This document shows, in pieces, positions 16,411 to 21,762 of a stretch of 57,973 bases of DNA. The notes under the pieces were generated by a model. The model ran no database searches. It saw nothing but the letters and a program-made list of their open reading frames with translations, and was not told where the DNA came from. Numbering within the stretch: position 1 is the stretch's first letter; every line of letters begins with the position of its first letter. The position numbers and the translations under genes are program-made. Source of the DNA: Pseudomonadota bacterium (GTDB lineage Bacteria; Pseudomonadota; Alphaproteobacteria; Reyranellales; Reyranellaceae); assembly GCA_018242505.1 (NCBI GenBank), contig JAFEBU010000029.1, forward strand, positions 1 through 57,973, read 5' to 3'.

Positions 16411-16742
16411 TCAATCAAGGCCGACGCGGCTTTGTCGGAACGCCGGCGCATCCATGCGCGACAAAAGCAGGTTCCGCGAGAGCCGGACGGGGGGCGCGAT
16501 CGGCAGGATCATGGGCTTGGTTTAGGATTGCGCCGAAGGTCCCGCAAACTGCTTGTTCGGTCCCGATCTCGCACGTCGAAAGGCTGGCAGTGCCCATCCT
16601 GCCATGCGTCCGGGGTCGCCATTTCCTGTTGCAGGACGAGGCGCGGGTTGTCGACGATCCCGTCCTGATCGTCTTTGCCGCGCAAACGGCTCGTTTGCAG
16701 GATGGCTGGCGGATAAGCTGCGTGTCAGGAGGAGTGGACAGC
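16411..16742. other. Intergenic stretch of 332 bp between divergent genes
   Basis: No convincing gene lies between the hydratase start (16410) and the monooxygenase start (16743). Open frames here lack ribosome sites and recognisable protein sequence. It holds the divergent promoters, a perfect palindrome at 16682-16698 and the AGGAGG (about 16728-16733) that fixes the monooxygenase start. Confidence 0.6.
16682..16698. promoter_or_regulatory. Palindrome GCAAACG-GCT-CGTTTGC, candidate operator
   Basis: A perfect 7-bp inverted repeat with a 3-nt centre lies 45 nt upstream of the monooxygenase ATG. It is followed by GC-mixed sequence and not by a T-run, so an operator is more likely than a terminator. 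The LysR regulator encoded at the end of the same unit is a possible ligand, though the site is not of the classic T-N11-A form. Confidence 0.35.
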
Positions 16743-17822
16743 ATGCGACATCTCGAATTCGGCTGGTTCCTGCCGACCGCTGGCGACACGACTGCCTATG
16801 GAGTCACCGGCGCGCAGGTCGGCTCGTCGATCGCGTTGTTCGATCGCGTCGTGCAGGCGGCCGAAGCTGCGGGTTTCGAATATATGCTGGTGCCGGTACA
16901 GACCGCCTGCTGGGAGGCTTGGATCTCGAGCGCGATGATGGTGGCGCGCTCCCAGTCGATCCGCATGTTGGTCGCGGCGCGGCCCTCCTATATCAACCCC
17001 GTGCTGCTCGCCAAGATGATCTCGACCTTCGACCAGCTCTCGGGCGGACGCATCTGCATCAACCTGATCGCCGGTCAAAGCGAAGCGGAGAATGCCGCCG
17101 AAGGCATCAAGTGGAGCAAGGAAGAGCGCTATGAGATCATGGACGAGGAGGTCTCGATCCTGAAGGCGCTGTGGACGACCCGTGGCCCGGTGAATTTCGA
17201 CGGCAAGTTCCATCAGCTCAAGGGTGCGCAGATCCGGCCTTATCCACTGCAGCAACCCTATCCGAAGTTCTATCTCGGCGGCGGCAGCCGGCAGGCCTGG
17301 GAGATCTCCGCCAAGCATTCCGACGTGCATCTGTTCTGGGGCGATACCTACGATCGCATACAAGCCAACATGGCCGAGATCAGAACCATGGCCGCCAGGC
17401 ACGGCCGCGAGCAGGAGATCGGCTTCGGCATGCGCTTGCAGATCGTCTGCCGTCCGACCGAGAAGGAGGCGTGGGAATTCGCCCACGGGCTGGTCGCCCA
17501 TGCGAGCGAGGCGCAGAAGGCGTTCGTGAAGCAGCACTTCGCGACCTCGGAGGCGAACCGCCGCGTGCGCGAGCTGGCAGCGATCGGCGAGACCATCGAG
17601 CCGCATCTCTGGACCGGCATTACCCAGGTGCGGCCGGGCGCCGGCATCGCCGTGGTCGGCGACCCGCAACAATGCGCCGACACCTTGCAAAGGTTCATCG
17701 ATCTTGGCTGCCACTCCTTCTGCCTCTCCGGCTACCTGCACGACGAGGAAGCCGAGCGGTTCGGCAAATGGGTGCTGCCGATCCTGCGTGAGCGCAATCG
17801 CGAACGCATGCTCGCGGCATGA
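16743..17822 (+). CDS. LLM-class flavin-dependent monooxygenase (SsuD-like)
   Basis: A 359-residue bacterial-luciferase-fold oxygenase resembling alkanesulfonate monooxygenase SsuD, which uses reduced FMN and oxygen to release sulfite from sulfonates. Supporting segments are FGWFLPTAGDTTAYG at the N-terminus, AARPSYINPVLLAKMISTFDQLSGGRICINLIAGQSEAE in the middle, and YPKFYLGGGSRQAWEISAKHSDVHLFWGD. The ATG follows AGGAGG by about 9 nt. The next gene, a LysR regulator, overlaps the stop codon, implying co-transcription and probably control of sulfur or related supply. No flavin reductase or sulfonate importer is adjacent. Other LLM substrates are possible. Confidence 0.9.
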   Translation: MRHLEFGWFLPTAGDTTAYGVTGAQVGSSIALFDRVVQAAEAAGFEYMLVPVQTACWEAWISSAMMVARSQSIRMLVAARPSYINPVLLAKMISTFDQLSGGRICINLIAGQSEAENAAEGIKWSKEERYEIMDEEVSILKALWTTRGPVNFDGKFHQLKGAQIRPYPLQQPYPKFYLGGGSRQAWEISAKHSDVHLFWGDTYDRIQANMAEIRTMAARHGREQEIGFGMRLQIVCRPTEKEAWEFAHGLVAHASEAQKAFVKQHFATSEANRRVRELAAIGETIEPHLWTGITQVRPGAGIAVVGDPQQCADTLQRFIDLGCHSFCLSGYLHDEEAERFGKWVLPILRERNRERMLAA

Positions 17823-18733
17823 TGCGCGGTTCGCTGCCCGACATCGGCGCGCGCCAGCTCGAGGCCGTGCTGGCTCTGGCGGAATACGGCAGCTTCGTCG
17901 CCGCAGCGGCACGGCTCCGGCTTTCGCAGCCGGCGCTGACGCGCATGGTGAAGCGGCTGGAGGATGAGCTCGGCGTGCGCCTGTTCGATCGCAGCACGCG
18001 GCGTGTCCGGATCACGGCGCCGGGCCGCGAATTCGCCGCCGTGGCCGAACGCATGCTGAACGATCTCGGCATCACGTTGCAGAGCGTGCGCGAGGTGGCG
18101 CAGGAACGGCGCGGCCTGATCGTCGTCTCGAGCGTGATGTCCGTCGCGGGCGGTCAACTGCCACGCCTGATCGCCGCCTTCCACGGCGATCGCCCCGGCG
18201 TCGAGATTCATATACGCGAGGGCATCTACGCAACGATCCTCGACGACGTGCGCAGCGGCGTCGCCGATTTCGGCATCGGCTACGTCGATGCGTTGCCCGA
18301 TTTTGCGGTCGGCACGGCGCTGGGGCGAGAGACATTCCATGCGGTCGTGCCCGCGCGCCACAAGCTGGCCGGCCGGCGTCGCGTCACCCTGGCCGAGCTT
18401 GCCGCTCATCCGATCGTGGCGCTGCCGACCGAATCGCGCACCCGCCGCACGATCGATGCCGCGGCCGTGACGGCCGGCGTGCAGCTTCACCAGAGGGTCG
18501 TCGTGACCCAGGTCGCGACGCTGCTCGCCCTTGTCGCTGCAAGTGTTGGCGTGGGCGTCGTGCCGGGCGGGGCGACCCGTGGGCCGCTGCCGTCGGGCGT
18601 GCGCGTCGTTCCGCTCGCCAAGCCTAAGCTGGTGCGCCGCATGGGGCTGATCATGCTGCGCGGGCGCGAGCTGACGCCGGTCGCCGCCGGCCTTGCGGCC
18701 CTGTTGCGGCGCGAATGGCGGAGGTCCGATTGA
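17819..18733 (+). CDS. LysR-type transcriptional regulator
   Basis: A 304-residue regulator with an N-terminal winged helix (IGARQLEAVLALAEYGSFVAAAARLRLSQPALTRMVKRLEDELGVRLFDRS-type sequence, residues about 9-60) and a two-lobed periplasmic-binding-like effector domain from about residue 95. It starts as ATGATG overlapping the monooxygenase stop; either Met could be used. The effector domain ends with a short Arg-rich tail. Likely targets are its own unit and possibly the genes downstream at 18811. The ligand is unknown; in this subfamily these are often small acids or sulfur compounds. Confidence 0.93.
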   Translation: MMRGSLPDIGARQLEAVLALAEYGSFVAAAARLRLSQPALTRMVKRLEDELGVRLFDRSTRRVRITAPGREFAAVAERMLNDLGITLQSVREVAQERRGLIVVSSVMSVAGGQLPRLIAAFHGDRPGVEIHIREGIYATILDDVRSGVADFGIGYVDALPDFAVGTALGRETFHAVVPARHKLAGRRRVTLAELAAHPIVALPTESRTRRTIDAAAVTAGVQLHQRVVVTQVATLLALVAASVGVGVVPGGATRGPLPSGVRVVPLAKPKLVRRMGLIMLRGRELTPVAAGLAALLRREWRRSD

Positions 18734-18810: not shown

Positions 18811-19872
18811 ATGACCGTGCAGCTTTCGTCCCGGACCTACGACGTCGACAGCATCTCCGCGGTGCAGGAGCTCTATCACAGCAATGGCTGGACAGACGGG
18901 CTGCCCATCGTGCCGCCGACGGAAGATGCCGTCCGGGCCTGCCTCGACTGGGTAATGATGCCGCCGGATCAACTGATCGGCATCGAGCCGGTGCGCGGGC
19001 TTGCGATCACGGTCGAGAAACTCGCGGTCAATTCAGTGATGGCGGGCTGCCTGCCGATGCACTTCCCTGTCGTTGTCACCGCGTGGACGGCGATGATGCA
19101 GGAGCCGTTCCTGATCCACGGCGCCACGGCCAGCACCGGTGGCTGTGCGGTGCTGGTGGTGTTGAACGGGCCTGTCCGGCGCGAGATCGGTGCCAGCGGC
19201 GGCTTCAATGCGCTCGGCAACTCGGATCGTGCGACGGCGGCGATCGGCCGGGCCATCCGGCTTTGCCTCATCAACTTGATGGATGTGCGGCCGGGCGCCA
19301 TCGACCGCTCGACACTCGGCCATCCCGGCAAGTTCAGCTACTGCATCGCCGAGGACGAGGAGGACTCGTCGTGGCTGCCGTTGCATCAGCAACGCGGGGT
19401 CGAGAAGGAAGCTTCGGCGGTGACGGTGATGGCGGCCGGTGCGCCGCGCCAGATCATGAACGAATGGACGACCAGGCCGGAGGAGATCCTGGAGACCTTC
19501 GCCGCCGAGATGAGGGCCAATCTCAGGCACTACTCGATCCACCCTGGCAACTATGCGCTGATCATTCCCAAGCAATTGCGCGAGCACCTGCAGGCGGCGA
19601 AGTGGAGCAAGACCGACATCGCCAACTTCATCCACGAACGCGCCCGCATCCATCGCCGCGAGTGGGCCGACGTCGGTAAGGGCGCAGTAGTGCGCGACCG
19701 CGGCGACAGCGTCTATCCTGCGATGGAGTCGCCCGACCAGCTTCTTGTCGTCGCGGCGGGCGGTCCGGCGGGCGGGTTCGGCGCCGTGATCCCGCCCTGG
19801 CTCGGCAACAAGAGCCATGCCGTCACCGTGCCGGTGGGCGTCTGCATCGATTGCGAACCGCCAAAGAGCTGA
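18811..19872 (+). CDS. Unrecognised protein, partner of the downstream selenoprotein
   Basis: A protein of 351-353 residues that I cannot assign to a characterised family. It opens with VDSISAVQELYHSNGWTDGLPIVPPTEDAV and contains a mid-region rich in small residues (ATASTGGCAVLVVLNGPVRREIGASGG) resembling a nucleotide- or cofactor-fold turn. It ends GVCIDCEPPKS, a C-terminal Cys-x-x-Cys that could be redox active. No signal peptide or membrane segment is seen. The ATG at 18811 abuts GGCGGAGG with no spacer; GTG at 18817, 6 nt after the ribosome site, may be the true start. The selenoprotein begins 10 nt after its stop, so the two form one unit and probably one complex. Confidence 0.85.
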   Translation: MTVQLSSRTYDVDSISAVQELYHSNGWTDGLPIVPPTEDAVRACLDWVMMPPDQLIGIEPVRGLAITVEKLAVNSVMAGCLPMHFPVVVTAWTAMMQEPFLIHGATASTGGCAVLVVLNGPVRREIGASGGFNALGNSDRATAAIGRAIRLCLINLMDVRPGAIDRSTLGHPGKFSYCIAEDEEDSSWLPLHQQRGVEKEASAVTVMAAGAPRQIMNEWTTRPEEILETFAAEMRANLRHYSIHPGNYALIIPKQLREHLQAAKWSKTDIANFIHERARIHRREWADVGKGAVVRDRGDSVYPAMESPDQLLVVAAGGPAGGFGAVIPPWLGNKSHAVTVPVGVCIDCEPPKS

Positions 19873-19882
19873 GGGGAACACC

Positions 19883-20407
19883 ATGACTTTCCGTGTGCTC
19901 GATCCCACCGCCGAGAAGACCGCGCCGCTCGGACAGGCGGCGCCACGCCTCGACACGCTCCAGGGCAAGACCGTGGGCTTCATCTCCAACGGCAAGGAAG
20001 GTACCAAGGGCTTCTTCCGCCACCTCGAACGTCTCCTGCGCGAGGAGCACGGCGTTGCCGAAGTGGTCAGCCGCACCAAGTCCAACTACAGCGCTCCGGC
20101 CGACGCGCACATTGCCGCCGAGATCAGGCGGTGGGATGCGGTGATCTCCGGCATCGGAGATTGAGGCAGCTGCTCATCGTGCAGTCTGCACGACGCTGTT
20201 ACCGCTGAACGTCAGAACGTTCCCGCCTTCGGGGTGATGACCACCCGCTTCGCGAGCGCGGCCGAGATGATGGGGCGCGTGCTGGGGATGCCGGGCTACG
20301 CCTTCGCCCTGATCGACCATCCGGTCAGCAGTGCCACCGACCAGCAACTCGCCGATCGGGCTCGGGCCGCCCTTGAACAGGGCGTGAAGCTGCTGGTGAA
20401 GGCCTGA
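19883..20407 (+). CDS. UGSC-motif selenoprotein (TGA at 20162-20164 read as selenocysteine)
   Basis: A 174-residue protein in which codon 94 is TGA and the frame then continues 80 codons to a TGA at 20405-20407. The start ATG follows GAGGGGAA. Residues 27-36 read LQGKTVGFIS, and the core continues as RWDAVISGIGD-U-GSCSSC, giving Sec94-Gly-Ser-Cys97-x-x-Cys100, a likely selenenylsulfide redox centre. The post-TGA part (VPAFGVMTTRFASAAEMMG, then ALIDHPVSS, then an amphipathic helix) keeps the codon bias of the pre-TGA part and has no start of its own. A hairpin with SECIS geometry follows the TGA. I recall an NCBI family called UGSC family (seleno)protein with this motif; membership is not checked. 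It is soluble and probably works with the gene 10 nt upstream. A standard annotation would truncate it at 93 residues. Confidence 0.88.
20165..20198 (+). promoter_or_regulatory. Bacterial SECIS element of the selenoprotein mRNA
   Basis: Immediately after the in-frame TGA, TCGTGCA (20177-20183) pairs perfectly with TGCACGA (20187-20193) around a GTC loop (20184-20186). A lower stem CAGC (20167-20170) with GCTG (20195-20198) can extend it across an internal loop. The loop begins with G then U and lies 19 nt after the TGA. Both fit the known bacterial SECIS rule (apical loop roughly 16-37 nt downstream, G among the first loop bases) recognised by SelB. Confidence 0.8.
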
Positions 20408-20446: not shown

Positions 20447-20668
20447 ATGAGACCACTCGTGCTCGTCGGCGTGATCCTGATCGTGCTTGGGATCGCAGGC
20501 CTGGTTGTCGCCAATATCTCCATCACCGAGCAGAAGACCGTCCTCGATGCAGGACCGCTCAAGGTCACCAAGGACGAGGAGAAGACCATCCCGATTCCAA
20601 CCATTGCCGGCGTCGTCGCCGTGGTGGTTGGCTTGGGCCTTGTCGTTGTCGGTAGAGGGCGTCGCTAG
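20447..20668 (+). CDS. Small two-helix membrane protein
   Basis: A 73-residue protein with two hydrophobic helices, about residues 4-25 (LVLVGVILIVLGIAGLVVANI) and 50-69 (IAGVVAVVVGLGLVVVG). They are separated by a polar linker with DAGPLKVTKDEEKTIPIP, and the tail is basic (RGRR). This is the layout of short DUF3185-type inner-membrane proteins of unknown function. It lies 39 nt after the selenoprotein and could share its transcript. CGGAGG is some 20 nt upstream of the ATG, so translation initiation is unclear. Its TAG stop overlaps the TAG of the convergent gene inside a shared CTAG. Confidence 0.7.
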   Translation: MRPLVLVGVILIVLGIAGLVVANISITEQKTVLDAGPLKVTKDEEKTIPIPTIAGVVAVVVGLGLVVVGRGRR

Positions 20669-21009
20669 GGCAGCTCCAGTTGGACCGCGACGGCGGCGCT
20701 GGCGATGGCAGCGACGTCCTTGCCTTCTGGGTCCGGGACATCGAGGCCGCCTTTCACCGCCTTCACCGTTACGATGCCGTGCGGCAGGGACGCCCGCACC
20801 TTGTCGAGATCGACTTTGTCGGGCTGCTGCACGCCGATCGTGACATCGACGAACATGCCGGTCTTCGAATCGACCTTGAGCGTGCGCAGCATGGTCAGCG
20901 AGCTGTGGTGCAGGGCGTCCTGCACCGCCCGCAACGCCGCCTTGGTGTAGTCGCCGCCGTGCAGGTCGTTGCCGGTGCCGAGTTCCAGAATCACGCGCTT
21001 GCGGGGCAT
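20665..21009 (-). CDS. Lin0512-like conserved protein, copy B
   Basis: A 114-residue soluble protein that I recognise as resembling the Lin0512 family of conserved hypothetical proteins (function unknown). Typical sequence is KRVILELGTGNDLHGGDYTKAALRAVQDALHHSSLTML near the N-terminus, then VDVTIGVQQPDKVDLDKVRASLPHG and VTVKAVKGGLDVP. It is clearly paralogous to the gene 10 nt upstream, with the same motif order. Such small tandem pairs often form hetero-oligomers. Third and last gene of the DoxX unit; convergent with the small membrane protein. Confidence 0.85.
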   Translation of the reverse strand: MPRKRVILELGTGNDLHGGDYTKAALRAVQDALHHSSLTMLRTLKVDSKTGMFVDVTIGVQQPDKVDLDKVRASLPHGIVTVKAVKGGLDVPDPEGKDVAAIASAAVAVQLELP

Positions 21010-21019
21010 GCGTCGCTCC

Positions 21020-21358
21020 TCAAAGGTCGAGCCGCACGATGGCGGCGGCGTGTGCGATCACTGTCTTGTCGGTGCCGGCCTCGTTTGCGATCTCGAGCCC
21101 GCCTTCGACGACTTTCACGACGCCGGTGCCGTGAGGCAGCACCTTCAGCACTTCACTCTTGTCGACCTGGTCCGGCTGCGGCACGCCGATCAGTACCTCG
21201 ACCTGCATGTCGTCACTCGACTTGCCGAGGGCATGGGCGACGGTGAGCGAGTTGTGCCACAGCGCATCGCGCAGGGCCCGTGCCGCGGCTTTGGTGTAGT
21301 CGCCGCCGCGAATGTCGGTGCCCATGCCGATCTCGAGGGCGACGCGCTTCAGGGTCAT
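21020..21358 (-). CDS. Lin0512-like conserved protein, copy A
   Basis: A 112-residue paralogue of the downstream gene: KRVALEIGMGTDIRGGDYTKAAARALRDALWHNSLTVA, then VEVLIGVPQPDQVDKSEVLKVLPHG and VVKVVEGGLEIANEAGTD. The frame opens further upstream, but family sequence begins at MTLKRVALEIG, whose ATG (21358) overlaps the DoxX stop as ATGA. Function unknown; the GxDxxGGDYTKAA block is the most conserved part and a candidate ligand or oligomer site. It is translationally coupled to DoxX. Confidence 0.86.
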   Translation of the reverse strand: MTLKRVALEIGMGTDIRGGDYTKAAARALRDALWHNSLTVAHALGKSSDDMQVEVLIGVPQPDQVDKSEVLKVLPHGTGVVKVVEGGLEIANEAGTDKTVIAHAAAIVRLDL

Positions 21359-21762
21359 GGCGATTCCCTGCTGCGTGTGGCGTCGATGCTCCACGGCCCC
21401 GGGCCGGCAGCGGCGACATAGAGCAGGCCGAAGCTGAAGAGGATCACGGTCTCGCCTCCGTTCAGGAGTGGGAAGAAGCTTCGAGGCGCATGCGCGTAGA
21501 AATAGGCCACCGCCGTCATGCCGGACAGGATGAAGGCTGTCGGCCGCGTGAAGAGGCCAATGACGAGCAATGCTCCGCCGATGAGCTCGAAGAAGCCGGC
21601 GATACCGAACATCGACGAGTAGTCAAGATTTGCGAACATGGGGACGGCGGGGACCTTGAAGAATTTCGCGATGCCGTGCTGAAGCAGCAACAAGCCGCAG
21701 CAGATGCGGAAGACACTGAGCAGGCGCGGCGCCCAAGACGCCGGAATGATGGTCAAGTCCAT
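21355..21762 (-). CDS. DoxX family membrane protein
   Basis: A 135-residue inner-membrane protein with four helices: about 12-30 (RLLSVFRICCGLLLLQHGIAKFF), 45-68 (FGIAGFFELIGGALLVIGLFTRPTAF), 70-90 and 105-125. The sequence LxxQHGxxKF and FELxGGxLLxxGxxTR is the DoxX signature. Members include subunits of thiosulfate:quinone oxidoreductase and proteins of redox-linked membrane complexes, but most are uncharacterised. The ATG at 21762 has GGGAGA 6 nt upstream. It heads a three-gene unit with the two Lin0512-like genes and is divergent from the carbohydrate ABC operon. Confidence 0.9.
   Translation of the reverse strand: MDLTIIPASWAPRLLSVFRICCGLLLLQHGIAKFFKVPAVPMFANLDYSSMFGIAGFFELIGGALLVIGLFTRPTAFILSGMTAVAYFYAHAPRSFFPLLNGGETVILFSFGLLYVAAAGPGPWSIDATRSRESP

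Follow-up and report, generated by a model that had tools for sequence, protein, structure and literature searches.

Where does the frame that opens at position 19883 end, what does its product do, and does it act alone? The window analysed here, the whole 57,973-nucleotide stretch of contig JAFEBU010000029.1 from a Reyranellaceae genome (GCA_018242505.1; 5.79 Mb in 85 contigs), carries at that position a frame interrupted by a TGA, which an initial annotation had read as a selenoprotein gene with selenocysteine (Sec) at residue 94. The features of the locus are collected in Table 1.

Table 1. Coordinates of the features discussed in the text
Feature	Coordinates	Strand	Remarks
Luciferase-like (alkanesulfonate-monooxygenase type) flavin monooxygenase, context	16713..17822	+	homologue near the pair in 46/81 records and 0/29 distant ones
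LysR-type regulator, context	17819..18733	+	homologue near the pair in 38/81 records and 1/29 distant ones
Partner gene, predicted second subunit	18811..19872	+	353 aa; 10 nt separate its stop from the UGSC start
UGSC-family selenoprotein frame (predicted)	19883..20407	+	174 residues with TGA 20162 read as Sec; end is TGA 20405-20407
In-frame TGA, predicted Sec94 codon of U-G-S-C-x-x-C	20162..20164	+	TGA in 80/80 related records
Bacterial SECIS-like hairpin inside the frame	20177..20193	+	arms 20177-20183 / 20187-20193, apical GTC loop 20184-20186
Lin0512-family gene (PF09585), downstream of UGSC	20668-21009	minus	
Frame looking like the Lin0512 neighbour, judged by eye only	21020-21394	minus	

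An in-frame TGA in a member of the UGSC family

From its ATG the frame runs for 93 residues to the first TGA and beyond it for another 80 (residues 95-174), closing at a further TGA in the same frame, and the interrupting codon opens the motif U94-G-S-C97-x-x-C100 (U-G-S-C-S-S-C in the window protein), all of which is as the initial annotation had described it. Its statement that codon bias is kept past the TGA was likewise borne out, with a GC3 of 0.81 after the codon versus 0.83 before. The post-TGA segment has a dN/dS of at most about 0.33 in eight relatives picked from 80, and by this measure is under purifying selection in the eight compared. The relatives comprised the best 80 of 83 found; judged by their titles, the records are mostly from Reyranella-like bacteria, with some Acetobacteraceae and Gammaproteobacteria, and a few come from the same assembly (e.g. 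L090/L099 and L093/L094). The set used to check the TGA contained 81 frames, including the L020 copy and a second copy in L079; the frame of L101 is cut by a contig end in that set and its TGA was read separately, and the L021 copy was missed by the motif pattern because Cys100 is Trp there. Two findings had been named in advance as speaking against a selenoprotein, namely homologues that end at residue 93 and a TGA that is an error for TGC. Homologues continue past residue 93, and the Sec codon is TGA in 80/80 related genome records, which rules out a sequencing error for TGC.

The window protein matched the Pfam model for UGSC (PF24696) with 162 bits against a cut-off of 25, residues 5-172 aligning to positions 2-171 of the 172 in the profile. 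With C written for U it scored 120.7 bits against NCBIfam NF041046, narrowly missing the equivalog cut-off of 125 by 4.3 bits, and the protein is therefore filed under the Pfam family and not under the NCBI equivalog. Among 36 aligned UGSC rows, Sec/Cys94, Gly95 and Cys97 are invariant and Ser96 is nearly so. Cys homologues (P0002, P0007, P0008 and others) read straight through the Sec position, and four database homologues (P0003-P0006) have Arg, Trp or Gly there; a different genetic code applied to TGA could account for the Trp and Gly, and not for the Arg. As had been foreseen of ordinary gene callers, many UGSC genes are cut at residue 93, and many database entries, stopping at the TGA, cover only about 53% of the query.

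A conserved hairpin after the TGA

Just downstream of the TGA lies a perfect 7-bp hairpin (TCGTGCA/TGCACGA) whose GTC loop is 19 nt after the codon, exactly where the initial annotation had placed it. Taken singly, the window hairpin is weak evidence: the 45-nt fold of the region has z = -0.54, and a stem of at least 7 pairs arises at that place in 7.6% of 200,000 random synonymous recodings of the same peptide. Comparison across homologues makes it strong evidence. We used the 102 distinct sequences of 113 frames, all of them open for 50 codons to either side. Standard pairing holds at each of the six innermost positions of the stem in 92 of these, and in 0/102 once the partner strand is shifted by 1-3 nt in either direction; the longest stem lies at exactly this place with a 3-nt loop in 90 sequences, and elsewhere or with another loop in 12. 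Codon usage was compared in the 82 of the 102 sequences that encode the identical peptide GSCSSCSLHD. Ser101 is AGT in 82/82, a codon that accounts for 4/88 Ser codons in five window stretches, and Cys100, inside the stem, is TGC in 82/82, whereas Cys97, outside the stem, is TGC in 45 and TGT in 37. Codon choice is thus frozen inside the hairpin and free outside. These comparisons indicate a hairpin under selection as RNA, in frame and just after UGA, which is the arrangement that marks a selenoprotein gene. In the copy on contig C70 of the same genome, Cys100 is replaced by Trp and Leu102 by Phe, and the stem is retained through a swapped G-C pair; the Cys form L183 is without the AGT codon.

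Selenium machinery and distribution

The initial annotation had called for a search of the genome for selA, selB, selC and selD, and had held that a lack of selB and selC would speak against it. All four are present above their cut-offs: selA, selB and a tRNA-Sec gene (anticodon TCA) form one cluster on contig C55, and selD is on C63. A second match to the tRNA-Sec model (L009; C76 8411-8496) scores 47.2 against a cut-off of 47 bits and is perhaps a tRNA-Ser. The PF24696 match, the sel genes, the TGA in 80/80 records and the conserved hairpin all uphold the selenoprotein reading. Insertion of selenocysteine at Sec94 is accordingly predicted with near certainty from the sequence comparisons, and we regard the window gene as a predicted authentic selenoprotein gene of a known family.

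The genome encodes three UGSC copies with one TGA each. In a survey of 289 alphaproteobacterial genomes, UGSC was found in 28, with up to eight diverged copies per genome, and 72/73 matches carry one TGA. Twenty-seven of the 28 UGSC genomes pass the selA cut-off, the exception being a 77% complete genome, versus 14/261 of the others; the Fisher P of about 1e-26 for this association is overstated because the genomes are related, as are the co-occurrence P values generally. The claim that Sec genes are rare in Alphaproteobacteria was only partly right, since selA passes its cut-off in 41/289 genomes; 14 of these 41 are without UGSC. UGSC lies 5.6-6.9 kb from selA in four surveyed genomes, including the one studied here. 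In a draw from the whole phylum, UGSC was present in 4/299 genomes (this genome, a congener, one with a Cys form and one with a split match). In L182 (genome G543), a UGSC match in two pieces beside a partner homologue is possibly a decaying copy.

A co-inherited neighbouring gene

The gene immediately upstream, absent from the initial annotation, is the more informative part of the locus. No Pfam or NCBIfam family matched its 353-residue product, and no partner of GRD systems was recognised in it. Among the best 80 of the 83 relatives, a homologue of this partner ends 12-231 nt upstream of UGSC in 79/80 records, and in the sole record without it the contig begins at UGSC. The partner is also near UGSC in 31/32 loci from the same genome and the class survey (32 loci inspected, out of 73 UGSC matches in the 289 genomes); at the remaining locus, L115, it is on another contig of that genome. 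Genome-wide, it was found in 29/289 genomes, namely all 28 with UGSC and 1/261 others, the last a marginal match of 48 profile positions. Both Cys forms for which the DNA was examined (L126 and L183) have the partner adjoining. In L127, UGSC and the partner are encoded as one chain, a natural fusion, and the database proteins P0184 and P0198 are chains with pieces of both. The single-chain protein of L176 and L127 (G057) has a Cys immediately ahead of Sec, giving a CUGSC motif, and its neighbours include thioredoxin-reductase-like, selB and selA genes; the CUGSC motif recurs in L181 (genome G053).

An alignment of 22 partner sequences has two invariant Cys residues, Cys80 and Cys178; on visual inspection, the fused version in L127 seems to be without the latter. 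The structure model of the partner (pLDDT 85.5) gave no significant structural match. Conserved adjacency, co-occurrence and fusion make an obligate partnership of UGSC with its 353-residue neighbour very probable. The coupling of UGSC to this unnamed protein, which the comparisons of sequence strongly support, is new here, and the two likely form one complex or reducing enzyme. A co-inherited and sometimes fused partner is a likely second component for UGSC, and the pair can be co-expressed and assayed.

Gene neighbourhood and proposed electron supply

Homologues of the two minus-strand frames downstream of UGSC recur near the pair in about 45/81 records and 1/29 distant ones. These neighbour counts, and those in Table 1, come from records whose flanks are in many cases cut by contig ends, and they leave aside minus-strand or shifted frames of the gene pair. 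Among the neighbours tested, no family besides the pair is kept widely beyond the genus, the next best being found in 8/29 distant records.

A different arrangement surrounds the third UGSC copy of the same genome (C70; L021 5733-9981), which has a UGSCSSW motif and tandem partner genes with overlapping starts. The gene order there is enoyl-CoA hydratase, thioredoxin-reductase-like flavoprotein, UGSC, partner A and partner B. The flavoprotein scores 179 bits against TIGR01292, below the cut-off of 343. Its homologues were sought in clusters hand-picked from the UGSC and partner survey matches; they were present in 7/11 C70-type clusters (five upstream, two downstream) and absent from 4/11, present in 2/2 CUGSC-type clusters and absent from 7/7 clusters of other types. 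In the whole window and the 80 related records, no homologue was found (0/81, E up to 1e-8). With no flavoprotein near UGSC of the window type, the electron source for this type can be proposed by analogy only. The thioredoxin-reductase-like neighbours of some paralogues nevertheless suggest what to feed the pair.

Predicted fold and possible relation to selenoprotein B

The structure model of UGSC (pLDDT 90.9) consists of strands alternating with helices, and Sec94 falls at the junction of strand 86-92 and helix 95-110. PDB entries matching it have for the most part generic alpha/beta folds, many of them of Rossmann/flavodoxin type (response regulators, PurE, lumazine synthase and TIR), and thioredoxin is absent among the 50 matches listed by either structure-search program, an absence that by itself rules out no fold. 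The predicted model looks Rossmann/flavodoxin-like.

When an alignment of 36 UGSC proteins was compared by hhalign with one of 30 PrdB/GRDB-like proteins, Sec aligned on Sec over 70 columns, with scores in the two directions of 28.6 (E 0.003) and 34.1 (E 0.0004) and a probability of only 10-34%. None of 150 column shuffles in the first direction reached 28.6, the best scoring 21.6, and six unrelated families scored at most 17.9 against UGSC, one of these controls having only 2 sequences. With an unrelated LysR alignment the GRDB-like profile reaches 23.3 (E 0.034), and its background is therefore not negligible. PF07355 was not matched by 27 UGSC members (hmmscan, E up to 10), nor were PF07355 and TIGR01918 by the window protein (P0001; E up to 1). 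Membership of UGSC in the GRDB family was rejected on family score, there being no PF07355 match; the evidence for kinship with selenoprotein B of glycine and D-proline reductase is suggestive. Matches to PF07355 occur in 31/289 alphaproteobacterial genomes, some of them Cys forms.

Proposed mechanism and alternative readings

The explanation that we consider best, and hold to be somewhat more probable than not, is that Sec is inserted by way of the hairpin and that UGSC and the upstream protein are the two subunits of a selenol-based reductase. SelB would bring Sec-tRNA to the UGA, where conservation of sequence and pairing predicts that the 17-nt hairpin, whose GTC or GTT loop lies 19 nt further on, is bound on the ribosome. 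In the predicted model, an alpha/beta fold, Sec94 sits at the start of the helix that follows strand three; from there it would attack the substrate or become oxidised, and the intermediate would be resolved by the two cysteines of the UxxCxxC motif, Cys97 and Cys100. The partner, with its two invariant Cys residues, would supply the rest of the active site or pass electrons on. The reducing power would come from NAD(P)H by way of a disulphide-reductase flavoprotein, such as is encoded next door in some paralogous clusters, and clusters of the window type, with none adjoining, would make use of one that the cell already has. A small molecule cleaved reductively, in the manner of glycine or D-proline reductase, would be the best-fitting chemistry. 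Both the reductase chemistry and the NAD(P)H supply are proposed by analogy: a thiol/selenol reductase fed by NAD(P)H has an even chance in our estimate, lowered from a slightly better one because the flavoprotein homologue was found in 0/81, and bond cleavage of the GrdB/PrdB kind is put forward tentatively, with the balance somewhat against it.

A simpler catalytic role would have Sec reduce a disulphide or peroxide, with the partner as an accessory. This agrees with the published view of the family (a "likely Trx-like fold" in the available passages of PMC2398784), with the UxxC motif and with the thioredoxin-reductase-like neighbours of some paralogues. We nevertheless find it unlikely, as strands and helices alternate in the confident model and Sec follows strand 3, the 50 matches listed by either program include Rossmann/flavodoxin-type folds and no thioredoxin, and a co-inherited 353-residue partner is more in keeping with an enzyme for a particular substrate than with a general thiol protein. 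Less probable again is a role for UGSC in selenium metabolism itself, in sensing, carrying or recycling selenium, which would account for its position near selA or selB in some genomes (5.6-6.9 kb from selA in the four mentioned above) and for selA in 27/28 UGSC genomes. Confinement to selA genomes is, however, expected of any Sec gene, 14/41 selA genomes are without UGSC, and up to eight diverged copies per genome fit enzymes with different substrates.

The reading that does away with selenium altogether takes the TGA as a true stop, with a 93-residue product and, beyond it, either a degenerate remnant or a small gene in its own right. Standard gene callers do end there, and the many database entries covering about 53% of the query follow suit, but this reading is scarcely credible given the downstream dN/dS of at most about 0.33 in eight relatives and unchanged GC3, the Cys variants (P0002, P0007, P0008 and others) that read straight through, the TGA in 80/80 related records, the frozen SECIS codons and the sel genes of the same genome. 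The two-subunit selenol-based reductase remains the reading that we prefer.

Comparison with known systems

UGSC is not a new family; it is already known and named (PF24696 / NF041046), and has been since 2008 (PMC2398784). Table 2 of that ocean survey lists UGSC-containing selenoproteins with 255 Sec and 21 Cys forms, which makes UGSC one of the commoner environmental selenoprotein families in the part of the survey available, and a 2026 review (PMC13188914) places it, in its available passages, among families with largely uncharacterised function. In the limited literature searched, by title or the opening of the abstract, we recognised no functional study of UGSC, of selenocysteine in Reyranella, or of UGSC paired with GrdB. 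The window gene shares with the described family the Pfam match, the U-G-S-C motif and the in-frame UGA with its hairpin, and differs in being one of three paralogous lines in its genome. Its two-gene organisation is not set out in the available passages of either paper. Those of PMC2398784 report a fusion of UGSC to an "Unknown_1" domain, which, compared by description only, could be the partner family; strict co-occurrence of the two is not described in them.

The nearest functional parallel that we can offer is selenoprotein B of the anaerobic glycine and D-proline reductases (GRDB/PrdB; PF07355, TIGR04483 and TIGR01918). UGSC resembles it in the UxxC(xxC) motif after a hydrophobic strand, in the weak profile match that sets Sec on Sec, and in the thioredoxin-reductase-like genes near some UGSC paralogues; grd operons carry thioredoxin reductase genes. 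It differs in length, at 174 residues versus models of 238-435, and in that the same genome holds a separate GRDB-like Sec gene (L147). The latter, at L147 1270-2430 (contig C31, near 184322), is PrdB/GRDB-like and carries its in-frame TGA within the motif VPV-U-P-A-C-T. Speculatively, and with a shade less confidence than we attach to GrdB/PrdB-like cleavage, UGSC and its partner may constitute a new class of NAD(P)H-fed two-subunit selenoenzyme, a distant cousin of the anaerobic glycine and proline reductases that took on a new role in environmental proteobacteria and, by duplication, gave rise to several versions per genome, each specific to its own substrate.
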